Shown here one piece after another: positions 2,848-12,256 of a DNA stretch of 14,085 nucleotides. The stretch lies in NCBI GenBank assembly GCA_022712835.1, contig JAFLJU010000459.1, forward strand, positions 1 to 14,085, written 5' to 3'. Each line of letters opens with the position of its first letter. Positions within the stretch are counted from its first letter, which is position 1. Made by a program: the position numbers and the translations under genes. The stretch is from Desulfobacteraceae bacterium. GTDB taxonomy: Bacteria; Desulfobacterota; Desulfobacteria; Desulfobacterales; Desulfobacteraceae. Below the pieces are notes generated by a model. The model worked only from the letters and a program-made list of their open reading frames with translations, made no database searches and was not told the DNA's origin.

Positions 2848-4275
2848 TTAAAACTTACCGGCTTCAATCTTTTTGGAAATGTAATTAATCTGCTCAAACA
2901 AAACGCCTTTTCGTTTGATTTCCTTTTCAATGGCATTTACAGAATAAATTGCCGTGGCATGATATTTTTTAAAACTGGAACCAATCTTTTTAATGGGCTG
3001 ATCGGTATATTTTTTTGCCAGGAACATGGCAACCTGTCTAGGTTTAACAATAATTTGTTTCCTGGATTTGGACATAATATCTGTTTCCGATATGGAGAAC
3101 TCATTACAAACCAATTGTTTAATCACATCAATGCTTATGCGCTTGCGGTTTTTAGTGATGTTGTCCAGAACACTTTTGGCAAGTTCAATATCAATATTGC
3201 GGCCCATGATCTGCCCCTTTGCCACCACACCGAACAACCCGCTTTCCAATTGCCTTACATCGTCGCACAATTCCTGGGCGATGTATTCGTTCACCATCAT
3301 GGGAACCTTACACCCAAGGGTATGGGATTTCTTTTTCAATATTCTCAACCGGGTCTTATAATCGGGTGCCTCAATCTCGGTCACCAATCCCATGGTCAAT
3401 CGAGATTTCAACTGATCATTGAGCTTTGGGATTTCATCGGGCAGCTCACACCCGGAAAAAATGATTTTCTTATCCGCATCCAGCAGATAATCCAAAGTGA
3501 TGGCAAGCTCTTTCTGGGTGGCCATTTTTCCGGACAAAAAATGAATGTCTTCCAAAATCAACACATCACATTTTCTTCGATATTTTTCCTTAAACCGCTC
3601 AATGGTATGGTTCCTCAGGGAAAATATCATTTCATTGGTAAAGTCTTCGGCCGTTACATAATAAACCCGGTTAGATCTTTTATTGGCCATCATATGATGC
3701 CCCACCGCCTGTGATAAATGACTTTTTCCCAACCCTGTTTTACCCAGCAGATACAGGATCGGAGCCCCGTTCATCTTTCCTTGTGCAAGAGATAGGGAGG
3801 CAGAATAGGCAAAATTTGAGTTATCCCCCACAACAAAATCATCAAATGTATACCCTTTTTTAAGCATCCTGCCGCCGTTAAAAGTGGCATCCAGGCCAGG
3901 TAATGTTGCCTGTTCCAATTTTTTCAACCGGGGCCTGACAGCCAGAGCTGGATAGGAACTGCCGAATTTATTTTCTATGGGTTTTTTTCCAGAATCATTT
4001 TTCTTGGCTTTTACCTTTTTGGGGTCATTGGTACCTTTTTCCCCATTTGCCTGGAGCGTAATATGAATGGGTTGTCCCATCTTTATAAATTCTTTGTTAA
4101 ACAGATCCAGATAATTTTCTTTTATCCGCTTGATAAAAAATTGGTTTGGGGTGGACAATGTAATACCATTGGCATCATATTCAAGAAGTGCCAATGGGTC
4201 TATCCACATCCGATAGCTATGATCAGGTATTGATTTTTTAATTTGAAACTTAACTTTTTCCCAGGATAATTCCAT
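2848..4275 (-). CDS. dnaA: Replication initiator DnaA, divergent ATPase and DNA-binding motifs
   Basis: A 475-residue DnaA with all four domains. Domain I is at 1-75 (SWEKVKFQIKKSIPDHSYRMW). Domain II is a lysine-rich linker at about 76-135. The AAA+ domain III starts at YTFDDFVVGDNSNFAY (142-157) and has Walker A GKTGLGKS (178-185), Walker B LILEDI (239-244) and the box VII arginine finger R292 (LKSRL). Domain IV is at about 378-475 with SKSRKQIIVKPRQVAMFLA (402-420). Several usually fixed positions differ. Sensor I reads SGC where E. coli has TSD. Sensor II reads RQLESGLFG (341-349), with glycine at the usual arginine (E. coli R334). The helix-turn-helix signature GGRDHTT is replaced by KKYHAT (436-441), one residue shorter and lacking the aspartate. 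I believe Desulfobacterales DnaA proteins share some of these changes, but that is from memory. No strong Shine-Dalgarno precedes the ATG. glcD follows with no gap; an AT-rich spacer lies upstream. No dnaN is present. Confidence 0.93.
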   Translation of the reverse strand: MELSWEKVKFQIKKSIPDHSYRMWIDPLALLEYDANGITLSTPNQFFIKRIKENYLDLFNKEFIKMGQPIHITLQANGEKGTNDPKKVKAKKNDSGKKPIENKFGSSYPALAVRPRLKKLEQATLPGLDATFNGGRMLKKGYTFDDFVVGDNSNFAYSASLSLAQGKMNGAPILYLLGKTGLGKSHLSQAVGHHMMANKRSNRVYYVTAEDFTNEMIFSLRNHTIERFKEKYRRKCDVLILEDIHFLSGKMATQKELAITLDYLLDADKKIIFSGCELPDEIPKLNDQLKSRLTMGLVTEIEAPDYKTRLRILKKKSHTLGCKVPMMVNEYIAQELCDDVRQLESGLFGVVAKGQIMGRNIDIELAKSVLDNITKNRKRISIDVIKQLVCNEFSISETDIMSKSRKQIIVKPRQVAMFLAKKYTDQPIKKIGSSFKKYHATAIYSVNAIEKEIKRKGVLFEQINYISKKIEAGKF

Positions 4276-4784
4276 TGGTTGACAAAAATACCTTTTCTTC
4301 CAAAATCAAATTTGGATCTTAGTAGGTTAAGCGGAAATACACAATTAACGTGAATCTAACGGACAATATAAAAAGTATAGGTTTTTCTATGCGATTATGA
4401 ATTTTGGGTCAACTCGAATAAACAAGGTTAGCAATCGATTAGATTTTCATCTGGCATAATTTTTCAACCATCTTAATTTATTAGATAATTATTGTGGAAC
4501 AAAAATTTTTCTTTAGATTCCAACCACTTCGACAACTATCTCTTTTTCAAAGGTTTTTTTACAATCCATCCTTTTTCTTTCGCAAGAGAAATTTTTTTTT
4601 CCTGCTATTTACTGCCTTTTACTCTATTTTATTCGGAATTTAATAAAAACTTACCTTATTTCTCAAACCTGAATTTTACAATGGTTTCACAATTTTTACA
4701 TTCAATTTTATTTACACTTTCCCTTTCAAAGGGTATATTTAAATTTTTTGACAATAACCTTATTTCAAATTTAGTGACAATACT
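4276..4784. other. AT-rich divergent intergenic spacer, possible origin region
   Basis: About 509 bases between the divergent starts of dnaA and pdxA. The right part (about 4480-4784) is extremely AT-rich, with T-tracts at 4554-4560 and 4592-4600. The motif TTTAC occurs at 4608, 4618, 4675, 4695 and 4711, the last three continuing as TTTACA. Four GTTA(A/G)-type motifs occur in the left part: AGGTTAAG near 4324, its reverse type near 4345 and 4357, and AGGTTAGC near 4425. No perfect E. coli-type DnaA box (TTATNCACA) is present. The closest are TGTGGAACA at 4493-4501 (two mismatches) and one inside the dnaA coding region at 4200-4208 (one mismatch). An AT-rich spacer beside dnaA is a common place for a replication origin, so this is a candidate, but the sequence alone does not prove it. 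Confidence 0.4.
4711..4739 (+). promoter_or_regulatory. Candidate sigma-70-type promoter for pdxA-uvrA
   Basis: TTTACA at 4711-4716 and TATATT at 4734-4739 are separated by 17 bases. Each hexamer differs from the sigma-70 consensus by one base. Transcription would begin near 4746, giving a leader of about 40 bases before the pdxA ATG. The surrounding DNA is very AT-rich, so chance matches are likely to be frequent. A second -35-like TTGACA at 4748-4753 has no good -10 partner. Confidence 0.5.
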
Positions 4785-10051: not shown

Positions 10052-11152
10052 ATGATTAAAGCAAGATTAGAACAATTCAACGTGCAACTCGGCCATGCCT
10101 CCGATGTAAAGCACAGGATCTTCATCTACTACATGATATTCTTTACCGTGATGTCCCTGTTCACGGTAGTGACCAATACCCTGTCCGGTCTGGACTATTC
10201 CTACAACTATAAATGGCTATTCATAGCCCTGACCACAGCAACCTTTCTTTTCCTGGCCCAGGGAAAGTGTCATGAACGAACCCTGCACAGAATGGGAATT
10301 TATTTTCTTTCCCTGATTATCCTGCCGATCTGCTGGCTATCCAGTTCCGGCCTGGTGTCTCCCAGCATTATCTATTCAGCTCTAGCACTGATCATGATCA
10401 ACACTCTGGTTTCTGGGTGGGAGCGCGTTTTCCTCAACCTGTGCCAAATTGTGCTGGTCTTTTGTCTGATAAGCCTGTTCTATTACCACCTCGGTCTGTT
10501 CAAAGCTATGAGTCCCAGGCAGCAATTCATTGACTGGATCATCAATGTTCCGGTTGTATTCGGATTTGTCGCCCTACTCCTGACCACCTTTGAAAAAGCC
10601 TATGAAGCAGAACGCTCGGACAACATCAGACACCAACGAATATTAGAGAAGCTCTCGGTCACGGACAGTCTGACAGGCCTCTTTAACCGCTCCGGCATGG
10701 AGGAAAAAGTTAGGAGCTTCATCAATTCATTTAAACGAACCCAGCATCTTTTTTCCATTCTCATGATCGATATTGACCACTTCAAAGCTTTTAACGATGC
10801 CAGTGGCCATCTTGTGGGGGATCAATGCCTGAAGACCGTGTCAGGCATATTGAAGCAAACCGCTTCGCGAGAAACGGACTGGGTTTGCCGGTACGGCGGT
10901 GAAGAGTTCATCATGGTCCTGGGATACACCGATACCGAAGGGGCGATCAATATTGCCGAAGGGGTTCAGGCGAACCTTGCCCGGGCTGCCATTCCCCATG
11001 CCGGGACTGGTAGAACCGTAACGGTCAGCATAGGGATAGCCACCATTAACCAGGAGAACCTGAGCACAGACCTGATCCTGTCCCAGGCAGACCAGGCCCT
11101 GTACTGTGCTAAGGCCGGAGGGCGTAACCGGATTGAGGCTTTCTCCCATTAA
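10052..11152 (+). CDS. Membrane diguanylate cyclase (GGDEF), six transmembrane helices
   Basis: The C-terminal GGDEF domain makes cyclic di-GMP from two GTP. From the ATG at 10052 the protein has 366 residues. Six hydrophobic segments at about 23-43, 54-70, 81-99, 103-121, 126-146 and 160-179 form a membrane sensor. A short helix (180-202) follows, then the catalytic domain: SVTDSLTGLFNR (202-213), metal aspartate D240 in MIDIDHFK, DASGHLVGDQCL (249-260), active-site RYGGEEF (280-286) and SIGIA (326-330). The inhibitory I-site RETD (R273, D276) sits six residues before GGEEF, as in PleD, so product inhibition is expected. No EAL domain or named sensor domain is seen, so the signal is unknown. 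A TTG at 9980 would add 24 residues, but M25 begins the more usual sequence; neither start has a good Shine-Dalgarno. The gene stands alone between gene-free stretches. Confidence 0.92.
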   Translation: MIKARLEQFNVQLGHASDVKHRIFIYYMIFFTVMSLFTVVTNTLSGLDYSYNYKWLFIALTTATFLFLAQGKCHERTLHRMGIYFLSLIILPICWLSSSGLVSPSIIYSALALIMINTLVSGWERVFLNLCQIVLVFCLISLFYYHLGLFKAMSPRQQFIDWIINVPVVFGFVALLLTTFEKAYEAERSDNIRHQRILEKLSVTDSLTGLFNRSGMEEKVRSFINSFKRTQHLFSILMIDIDHFKAFNDASGHLVGDQCLKTVSGILKQTASRETDWVCRYGGEEFIMVLGYTDTEGAINIAEGVQANLARAAIPHAGTGRTVTVSIGIATINQENLSTDLILSQADQALYCAKAGGRNRIEAFSH

Positions 11153-11356
11153 AATGCGGTTTTTTGAATCAAAGCCCGATACCATATCTTGTGTCCAGAG
11201 GAACTTTTATCTGTTCTGCAAAAAATAAACTTTTTACATTTAATAACCTGATTTTTTGGAAAGCCTTTCCAGGAAGGTATTTAATGGGTTAAATGGATTT
11301 TTGAATATAATGTTAAGCAACTGGAAAGCTAATTTCCTGTGTGATTGTTTACCATC

Positions 11357-12256
11357 CTATTTTTGGACTACTTTTAATCCTTTCTTTGACAACATATCTA
11401 TTACACTATCCTCACCAATTAAATGTAAAAGACCAACTACTACCAATACATTCTCAGGATTTTTTGTTAGCTCTATAATTTTTGGAACCCATCGCTTATT
11501 CGTGTCGGTAACTAAGACTTTATCAAGCTTTGGGAACTTTTTAAGCAGACTAATATCGTACATGGCTAAAAAAAAATTAATATCTCCATTTTCCCATGCC
11601 TGTGGACTTTTGACCCATTCGTATTCTTGTAATTCTTTCAATGATATCTGCATAAACAAATCTTGATCAATTTTGTCGTGATAGAGATAGCTGTCAAAGG
11701 TTTGTTCTAATGTTTCAAGCCCTTTTATGTTTTTTTGATCAATTTCGGCTTTAGATTTAAAATAATTATCAATACCCAATTTTTTTTCAAGACCAATTTT
11801 CTCATTTTTTATTTGAAAAAGATATGCCGAACACATCCAGGGTTTCATATGAATAAACTGACTTAACTTCAGGTCTGAAGCTAATAAATAATCTAAAAGC
11901 GATTTGAAAGTTTCATTCGAAAGGTAGGATTTGATTGATTTACCAGAAGGTATAACCCCCATCATCTGAAAGGATTTTATAATTTCTTCTTGAGATACTT
12001 TTTGAGCATTTAGGTTTTCAAAAACTATAGTATCACAGCTTTGATAAGTTTTTTCTATTAATGCAGTTAAAGGATAGATCGTTTTGGGCATAGCATGGAG
12101 AGACCCTAAAAGGTAAACTGAATTTTGCTTTGATTTTATTTCCCATAAAAAATGTTTGTTCTCAGCGCTATATGCAATTTGAATATTGCAAAAAACAAGT
12201 GTCCAGAAACAGATTTGAAAAATGAATATGCATTTTGGTATCTGATAGAACATCAT
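11357..12256 (-). CDS. TraB/GumN-family protein, secreted or periplasmic
   Basis: A 299-residue member of the TraB/GumN family (related to the TIKI proteases of animals; bacterial roles are mostly unknown). The first 31 residues form a signal peptide: hydrophobic CIFIFQICFWTLVFCNIQIA, with probable cleavage after AYSA. The mature start HFLWEIKSKQNSVYLLGSLHAMP (35-57) is the family's N-terminal motif with GSLH (51-54). Further on are E80 (IVFEN), GIDNYF (161-166) and, near the end, VVGLLHLIGEDSVIDMLSKKG (273-293) with the second GxxH, GLLH (275-278). These two GxxH motifs are the proposed active-site pair. The gene begins with two adjacent ATG codons; GGAG at 12261-12264 is 4 bases from the first and 7 from the second, so residue 2 may be the true start. 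The gene is AT-rich and is transcribed alone, convergent with the diguanylate cyclase gene. Confidence 0.88.
   Translation of the reverse strand: MMFYQIPKCIFIFQICFWTLVFCNIQIAYSAENKHFLWEIKSKQNSVYLLGSLHAMPKTIYPLTALIEKTYQSCDTIVFENLNAQKVSQEEIIKSFQMMGVIPSGKSIKSYLSNETFKSLLDYLLASDLKLSQFIHMKPWMCSAYLFQIKNEKIGLEKKLGIDNYFKSKAEIDQKNIKGLETLEQTFDSYLYHDKIDQDLFMQISLKELQEYEWVKSPQAWENGDINFFLAMYDISLLKKFPKLDKVLVTDTNKRWVPKIIELTKNPENVLVVVGLLHLIGEDSVIDMLSKKGLKVVQK

Follow-up and report, generated by a model that had tools for sequence, protein, structure and literature searches.

The window, a 14,085-nucleotide stretch of DNA from a Desulfobacteraceae bacterium, very probably encodes a genuine, single-copy initiator of a Desulfobacteraceae type with a re-built turn in domain IV which, judging from related genomes, reads TTATNAACA (with TTATGAACA as the best copies) instead of TTATNCACA. 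The turn is changed in the protein itself, the change is spread through the sampled order, the altered box is enriched before dnaN of the relatives, and base 6 of the box co-varies with the protein. We propose that the re-built turn, one residue shorter and with D433 changed to Y, T435 to A, P423 to K and H439 to Y (E. coli numbering), would read the altered box, so that DnaA would bind TTATNAACA as ordinary DnaA binds TTATNCACA. The predicted boxes would also be present at the window's own origin. The features concerned are listed in Table 1.

Table 1. Features of the window in and around dnaA
Feature	Position	Strand	Basis
dnaA, 475 aa	2848..4275	minus	open reading frame and family profile matches
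domain IV (Bac_DnaA_C, box-binding domain, residues 382-449)	2929..3132	minus	PF08299 profile 1-69 of 69, 77.5 bits
shortened helix-turn-helix F435-KKYHAT-441 in place of FGGRDHTT	2953..2973	minus	sequence
codon of A440 (= E. coli T435)	2956..2958	minus	residue co-varying with box base 6 among relatives
codon of K429 (= E. coli P423, box contact in E. coli)	2989..2991	minus	by-eye alignment to the E. coli sequence; contact list in PMC7561715
codon of R405 (= E. coli R399, minor-groove reader of TTA), conserved	3061..3063	minus	same residue in all 30 homologues aligned
AT-rich spacer between dnaA and pdxA	4276..4784		conserved in three relatives (L001-L003)

At the level of the full-length family, the protein scores 394.2 bits against the TIGR00362 equivalog (cut-off 343.9), and domains I, III and IV follow each other in order (PF11638 at residues 5-60, PF00308 at 138-299 and PF08299 at 382-449), all above the Pfam cut-offs. 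The D-H-[ST]-T recognition motif is absent from its domain IV, which has YHAT there instead; D-H-[ST]-T is a motif of many DnaA members and no criterion of the TIGR00362 or Pfam family models. Each of six close genomes gave a single Bac_DnaA_C match (E 0.001), and the idea that a paralogue, a second and canonical DnaA, initiates was rejected for the relatives on this basis. Neighboring genes, named by eye from their translations, are an FAD-linked glycolate oxidase-like gene, which follows dnaA, and the divergent pdxA and uvrA. An AlphaFold model of the whole protein, for which 30 sequences were used, reached a mean pLDDT of 64.5 and fell below 50 across residues 428-447; it was left unused.

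The turn of E. coli DnaA carries the signature FGGRDHTT. Residues of the window protein were matched to it in an alignment by eye, using E. coli numbering. The protein lacks one glycine of the turn; K replaces R432, Y replaces D433 and A replaces T435, and H434 and T436 are retained. The sequence thus confirms the original prediction that F-KKYHAT (residues 435-441) replaces F-GGRDHTT, one residue shorter, with the aspartate lost and a threonine changed to alanine; the turn is present, but its location had been given as 2954-2971, off by one and two bases from the correct 2953-2973. Regarding other contact positions, P423 is replaced (K429), H439 is replaced (Y444), and R399 is kept (R405); all three are among the box-contact positions listed for E. 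coli in PMC7561715. E. coli DnaA reads TnCACA with its recognition helix and TTA with R399, and the exchange T435M spoils binding (PMC5742627). From a kept R399 and a changed start of the helix one would expect a box that is unaltered in its 5' part and altered in its center, which matches what we found before dnaN; the kept minor-groove arginine (reader of the 5' TTA), H434 and T436 would fit unchanged box ends and a switched sixth base. Alanine at 435 and tyrosine at 439 have already been noted in some epsilon- and deltaproteobacteria, with no link to base 6 in the part of the article covered (PMC5043019).

A shorter turn has a structural precedent in Thermotoga maritima DnaA (2z4r), where the turn is equally short, FKKYHATAIYSV aligning without a gap to FNRSHPVVVDSV, and which also reads a different box. 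This box is described as the 9-mer ACCTACCAC, earlier as the 12-mer AAACCTACCACC, and the contact residues as not conserved, in the sections covered of PMC7561715, PMC10316083 and PMC10225481. However, the T. maritima box is quite different from the one proposed here, and so are the residues at the contact positions.

The short turn is widespread among relatives. All 120 best-listed homologues of 3302 matches (at least 64% identity) have YHAT and none has GGRDH; the named sources among these 120 are Desulfobacter, Desulfobacula, Desulfotignum, other Desulfobacterales, and Deltaproteobacteria or Proteobacteria. In the order of the closest relative, sampled with 291 genomes (277 with a Bac_DnaA_C match), the DnaA sequences examined have F-[NK]-[RK]-Y-H-A-T, with few variants (Y in place of F; T or G in place of the alanine; RRHHAT or KRNHAT). 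Next to the textbook signature the motif looks aberrant, as a sequencing error or a mutation private to one genome would, but its presence in all 120 best homologues and in nearly all DnaA sequences read from the order refutes this explanation and leaves it practically no probability. The window groups with G001-G003 (support 1.00) in a tree built from 43 DnaA proteins, six canonical phylum mates serving as outgroup. On the sequences read, the loss of the aspartate and of a glycine is common to the sampled order. The canonical pattern FGxR[DN]H-x-T occurs in 16 of the 291 order genomes, in some places clearly outside DnaA. FGxRDH[ST]T was found in no more than 19 of 247 phylum genomes, so the departure may extend beyond the order. 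Exceptions within the order are G239, G126 and G245, which carry a DnaA of a different type beside dnaN, with FGGRDHST (L209), FGNKHHSS (L211) and FGGKDHST (L210), respectively; G239 and G126 have a YHAT DnaA too, on another contig. Contaminated assemblies and a second initiator are both possibilities for these contigs. Another four genomes (G055, G178, G290 and G244) each show 15-19 Bac_DnaA_C domain matches, the surplus possibly reflecting domain IV on other proteins.

The box analysis covers 75 dnaN regions, picked by listed position or closeness and not at random, and some cut by contig ends. The regions of G245 and G239 and the first one of G126 (GGKDHST, GGRDHST and GNKHHSS, respectively, in a dnaA of the other type beside dnaN on the same contig) were left out of all box counts, so that 72 were counted; because the genomes are related, these counts are not independent. 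The closest relatives with dnaN are G001, G002 and G005 (KKYHAT) and G004 (NKYHTT). In all four, an AT-rich stretch of about 280 bp precedes dnaN, with 15-20% GC in the last 250 bp, and contains clusters of TTATGAACA, TTTTGAACA, TTATAAACA and similar words; TTWTNCACA does not occur in it. The word search suggested along with the original prediction was carried out near dnaN: in an unbiased count of 9-mers over the 700 bp upstream of dnaN in 49 genomes (G123 excluded, also from the base-6 counts), TTATGAACA ranked first, being present in 19 of them as opposed to 1.5 expected from dinucleotide shuffles. Over 2500 bp it ranked seventh, behind words including ATATCAACA and TTATTGACA.

Sorted by base 6, the same 49 upstream regions of 700 bp contained 74 copies of the A6 class TTATNAACA vs. 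4.7 expected from dinucleotide shuffles (35 of 49 genomes), 3 copies of the C6 class TTATNCACA vs. 1.8, 22 of the G6 class TTATNGACA vs. 1.8, and 4 of the T6 class TTATNTACA vs. 3.3; TTATCCACA was absent. The excess of TTWTNAACA was 8.7-fold, and variants at base 7, 8 or 9 reached at most 2.3-fold. In an enlarged set of 70 genomes (G123 and G174 excluded, also from the distance profile), the 700-bp counts were 92 for A6, 7 for C6, 31 for G6 and 5 for T6, and two of the added genomes, G073 and G069, had one TTATCCACA each. The density of TTATNAACA in the last 250 bp before dnaN was 3.43 per kb in these 70 genomes (0.3 per kb for TTATNCACA), compared with a background of 0.061 and 0.105 per kb in stretches drawn at random from two genomes; the density has a second rise 1.25-2.5 kb upstream, at the location of the G121 and G012 arrays. 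All 72 regions together, over 2.5 kb, gave 134 copies of TTATN-x-ACA with A at base 6, 25 with C, 41 with G and 7 with T, and 15 of the 25 C6 copies come from G123 and G174. At least two TTWTNAACA within 300 bp were present in 50 of the 72 genomes; 16 had no such pair but at least one copy in 2.5 kb (G123 and G174 included), and in six (G016, G287, G135, G258, G098 and G045) none was found within 2.5 kb of dnaN.

The promoter -35 consensus is TTGACA. TTWTTGACA was enriched in the 700 bp upstream of dnaN (24 copies vs. 2.2 expected; 19 of 49 genomes), and the G6 class consists mostly of TTATTGACA. Since TTATTGACA overlaps the -35 consensus, we do not claim it as a true G6 box; it may be the -35 element of a dnaN promoter rather than a DnaA box.

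For comparison, we inspected 14 loci from 13 of the 19 phylum genomes with FGxRDH[ST]T. In these canonical phylum mates (FGGRDH[ST]T), TTATCCACA occurs within 6 kb around dnaA at 10 of the 14 loci, and four loci also have one or two TTATNAACA. The TTATNCACA cluster of a canonical origin was absent from the 49 relatives, and an array of this kind was found only in G123 and G174 (YHTT). The suspicion that the box would be unlike TTATCCACA is therefore supported in the relatives by the enrichment of TTATGAACA and TTATNAACA, but the box is not wholly different, as only base 6 is changed. Standard boxes, a cluster of which would speak against a changed box, were also sought: single copies of TTATCCACA lie within 2.5 kb of dnaN in three of 72 genomes (G073, G069 and G020), and the only strong C6 arrays, of TTATGCACA, are those of G123 and G174.

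In the four aligned close relatives (G001, G002, G004 and G005), a conserved block consists of AGTTATGAACA, followed by TTTRAACA or TATGAACA, a 4-base spacer and TTATTATTGTTATTATC, which is replaced by TTATTATTATTATTA in G004. A box pair, a spacer and DnaA-trios constitute the basal unwinding system (PMC8287927; B. subtilis trio sequence in PMC10316083). By eye and by script, a box or box pair lies within about 16 bp of at least three trios in all four relatives, and in G174 the box adjoining the trio run is TTATGCACA. The box pair, short spacer and run of TTA-type trios of the closest relatives would correspond to an ordinary unwinding module. Across 50 genomes, the best trio run following a box comprised on average 2.9 of 8 TTA/CTA triplets vs. 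0.64 in shuffles, with none in some genomes; this control is generous, as shuffles seldom keep a box, which lowers their score.

Protein and box can be compared in four genomes, G121 and G012 (FNRYHAT) and G123 and G174 (FNRYHTT), whose arrays have four core boxes arranged alike in orientation and spacing (minus 17 plus 22 minus 17 plus). All four core boxes are TTATGAACA in G121 and G012, and all four are TTATGCACA in G123 and G174; G121 and G174 have an even longer run of spacings in common (15-11-17-22-17-15). Among 66 genomes with alanine at 435, TTATNAACA was ahead within 2.5 kb in 48 and TTATNCACA in none, with 18 ties (15 with neither). The three threonine-435 genomes were divided (A6 ahead in one, C6 in two), both glycine-435 genomes were ties, and A6 was ahead in G088, the one genome with the residue unread. 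The glycine-435 genomes G016 (L167) and G082 (L275), with FNRYHGT, have no array near dnaN; G016 has neither TTATNAACA nor TTATNCACA, and G082 has one of each.

These data bear on the alternative that the turn drifted without a change of specificity, TTATCCACA still being preferred and the A6 sites representing weak boxes or AT-rich noise. TTATNAACA does differ from TTATNCACA by a single base, the sequence before dnaN of the four closest relatives is as poor in GC as stated above, and 9 of the 66 alanine-435 genomes contain one TTATNCACA each, to which the three genomes with TTATCCACA can be added. However, the 74 copies of TTATNAACA far exceed the 4.7 from shuffles with TTATNCACA near chance, and base 6 differs at every core box between species of identical core spacing, so that we regard drift as very improbable.

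The tree, from which G012 was left out, joins G123 and G174 to G121 and G016 with a support of 0.91 (0.47 and 0.43 at the inner nodes). This clade is nested among YHAT genomes, and the C6 boxes of G123 and G174 therefore look like a return from A6. Loss of the aspartate as the sole cause of the altered box is weakened, as both the aspartate and the turn glycine are missing from G123 and G174 (YHTT) too, and their boxes are nevertheless C6. Our lead is that residue 435, perhaps together with 432, sets base 6, and it is from this co-variation that we infer which residue is involved. In its simplest form, residue 435 would act alone, alanine giving A6 and threonine C6; by inspection it is the only consistent difference within F-xx-YHxT between G121/G012 and G123/G174, and the split among alanine-435 genomes with a preference is 48 to 0. 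Threonine at 435 alone is insufficient, however, because G004 (FNKYHTT, with K for R432) keeps A6 boxes (TTATGAACA). In addition, G123 and G174 may represent one event given the weak inner support of the tree, and the glycine-435 genomes show no preference, with both words missing from G016 and one copy of each in G082. We give this simplest form somewhat less than an even chance. Slightly favored is the broader proposal of an origin code re-specified across the order, in which the deletion and substitutions in the turn would have accompanied the change of base 6 from C to A, one branch having reverted in concert (threonine at 435 and C6 in every box of the array).

In nine relatives whose dnaA and dnaN share a contig, the distance between them is at least about 197 kb and reaches several Mb. 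The closed genome of G251 has dnaN at base 1 and dnaA at 2.66 Mb; of its 20 GC-skew samples, those between 0 and 1.9 Mb are positive, those between 2.2 and 4.3 Mb negative, and those between 4.5 and 5.1 Mb near zero. In G263, positive skew sets in between 0.12 and 0.45 Mb; dnaN is located at 0.57 Mb, and dnaA at 3.63 Mb. In these two closed genomes, the skew thus changes sign at dnaN or no more than about 0.45 Mb from it, and on their strength the origin of the relatives is likely near dnaN, exactly or within some 0.45 Mb, with dnaA remote; the distance of 0.1-0.45 Mb between skew flip and dnaN in G263 counts against the main reading.

Given this arrangement, the lack of boxes in the window speaks neither for nor against a changed box. 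That perfect classic boxes are missing nearby, as originally stated, is true (no TTWTNCACA in the window vs. 1.95 expected by shuffling) but uninformative with dnaA remote from dnaN. An origin in the AT-rich spacer between dnaA and pdxA was considered and rejected: neither TTWTNCACA nor TTWTNAACA occurs in it, which makes it unlike an origin array, and the GC skew shows no clear flip across the window. The spacer has 28% GC at its lowest and is strongly conserved in L001-L003; it may contain divergent promoters or sites of another regulator.

The separation of dnaA from dnaN is also compatible with TTATNAACA upstream of dnaN being the site of another protein, for example a regulator of dnaN, and DnaA binding elsewhere, and G287, G135, G258 and G098 have no site in the 700 bp before dnaN and only 0-2 in up to 5 kb. 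Against this, the sites have the TTAT and ACA of the universal box, adjoin trio-like repeats in close relatives, occur in 11 exact copies of TTATGAACA in G121, and, in the two relatives that combine R432 with T435, are replaced by TTATGCACA, which follows the standard box pattern. We therefore hold another protein to be very unlikely, and boxes of DnaA itself to be the preferred reading.

The four genomes without sites (L144, L146, L174 and L179), close relatives with an FKRYHAT DnaA, have about 50% GC before dnaN and no A6 box in 700 bp, and their origin seems to have parted from dnaN; a search of 30 genomes with one 17-base origin block, allowing two mismatches, was too unspecific to place it. 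Regarding gene order, an rdgC-like ORF, recognized by eye, lies about 1.2-1.4 kb upstream of dnaN in L162, L163, L164, L165 and L140. In L162-L165 it is followed by a gene starting with MLDIATxYNKY, intergenic boxes and dnaN, and in L140 the box array precedes it. In G251 (L138), an AT-rich block of about 300 bp upstream of dnaN is, by eye, present twice (10930-11240 and 11540-11870), with the boxes doubled.

Compared to canonical DnaA (E. coli and B. subtilis type; TTATNCACA), the window protein is alike in domains I, III and IV, the equivalog score, the minor-groove arginine, H434 and T436, and unlike in the shorter turn and the replaced D433, T435, P423 and H439. At the level of the system, the relatives share with it the box ends TTAT and ACA and, in close relatives, the pair of boxes with a trio-like module; they differ in A instead of C at base 6 and in the distance of dnaA from dnaN. 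Lineage-specific DnaA boxes are already known from Cyanobacteria, Epsilonproteobacteria and Thermotoga. In Epsilonproteobacteria (H. pylori and A. butzleri), helix-5 substitutions have likewise been proposed to underlie such a box, but its core is TTCAC, with T at base 5 and C6 kept, and the 433-434 dyad is highly conserved (PMC5043019). The cyanobacterial box TTTTCCACA is also lineage-specific and adjoins dnaN in Cyanothece, but is changed at base 3 with C6 kept; for Cyanothece, a single TTATCAACA box is named, on the linear chromosome only (all in the part of PMC4674748 covered).

Few protein-DNA codes in bacteria are as conserved as the DnaA box. Among the matches listed, our literature search returned neither an A6 box as the rule of a lineage nor work on boxes of Desulfobacterales (subscription papers, supplements and DoriC tables were outside its scope), and no Desulfo- genus is mentioned in the portions covered of the main texts of PMC8287927 and PMC10225481. 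By default, Ori-Finder 2022 uses TTATCCACA and dnaA as indicator gene, other motifs being selectable (PMC10225481). With an altered box across the order and dnaA far from dnaN, the origins of these bacteria are likely missed or misplaced, and the altered box supplies a motif for locating them. Arrays with the same spacing and opposite base 6 offer a ready system for studying how an essential initiator and its many sites change specificity together. If true, the order-wide proposal would provide a natural series in which initiator and origin have changed in step, box by box.
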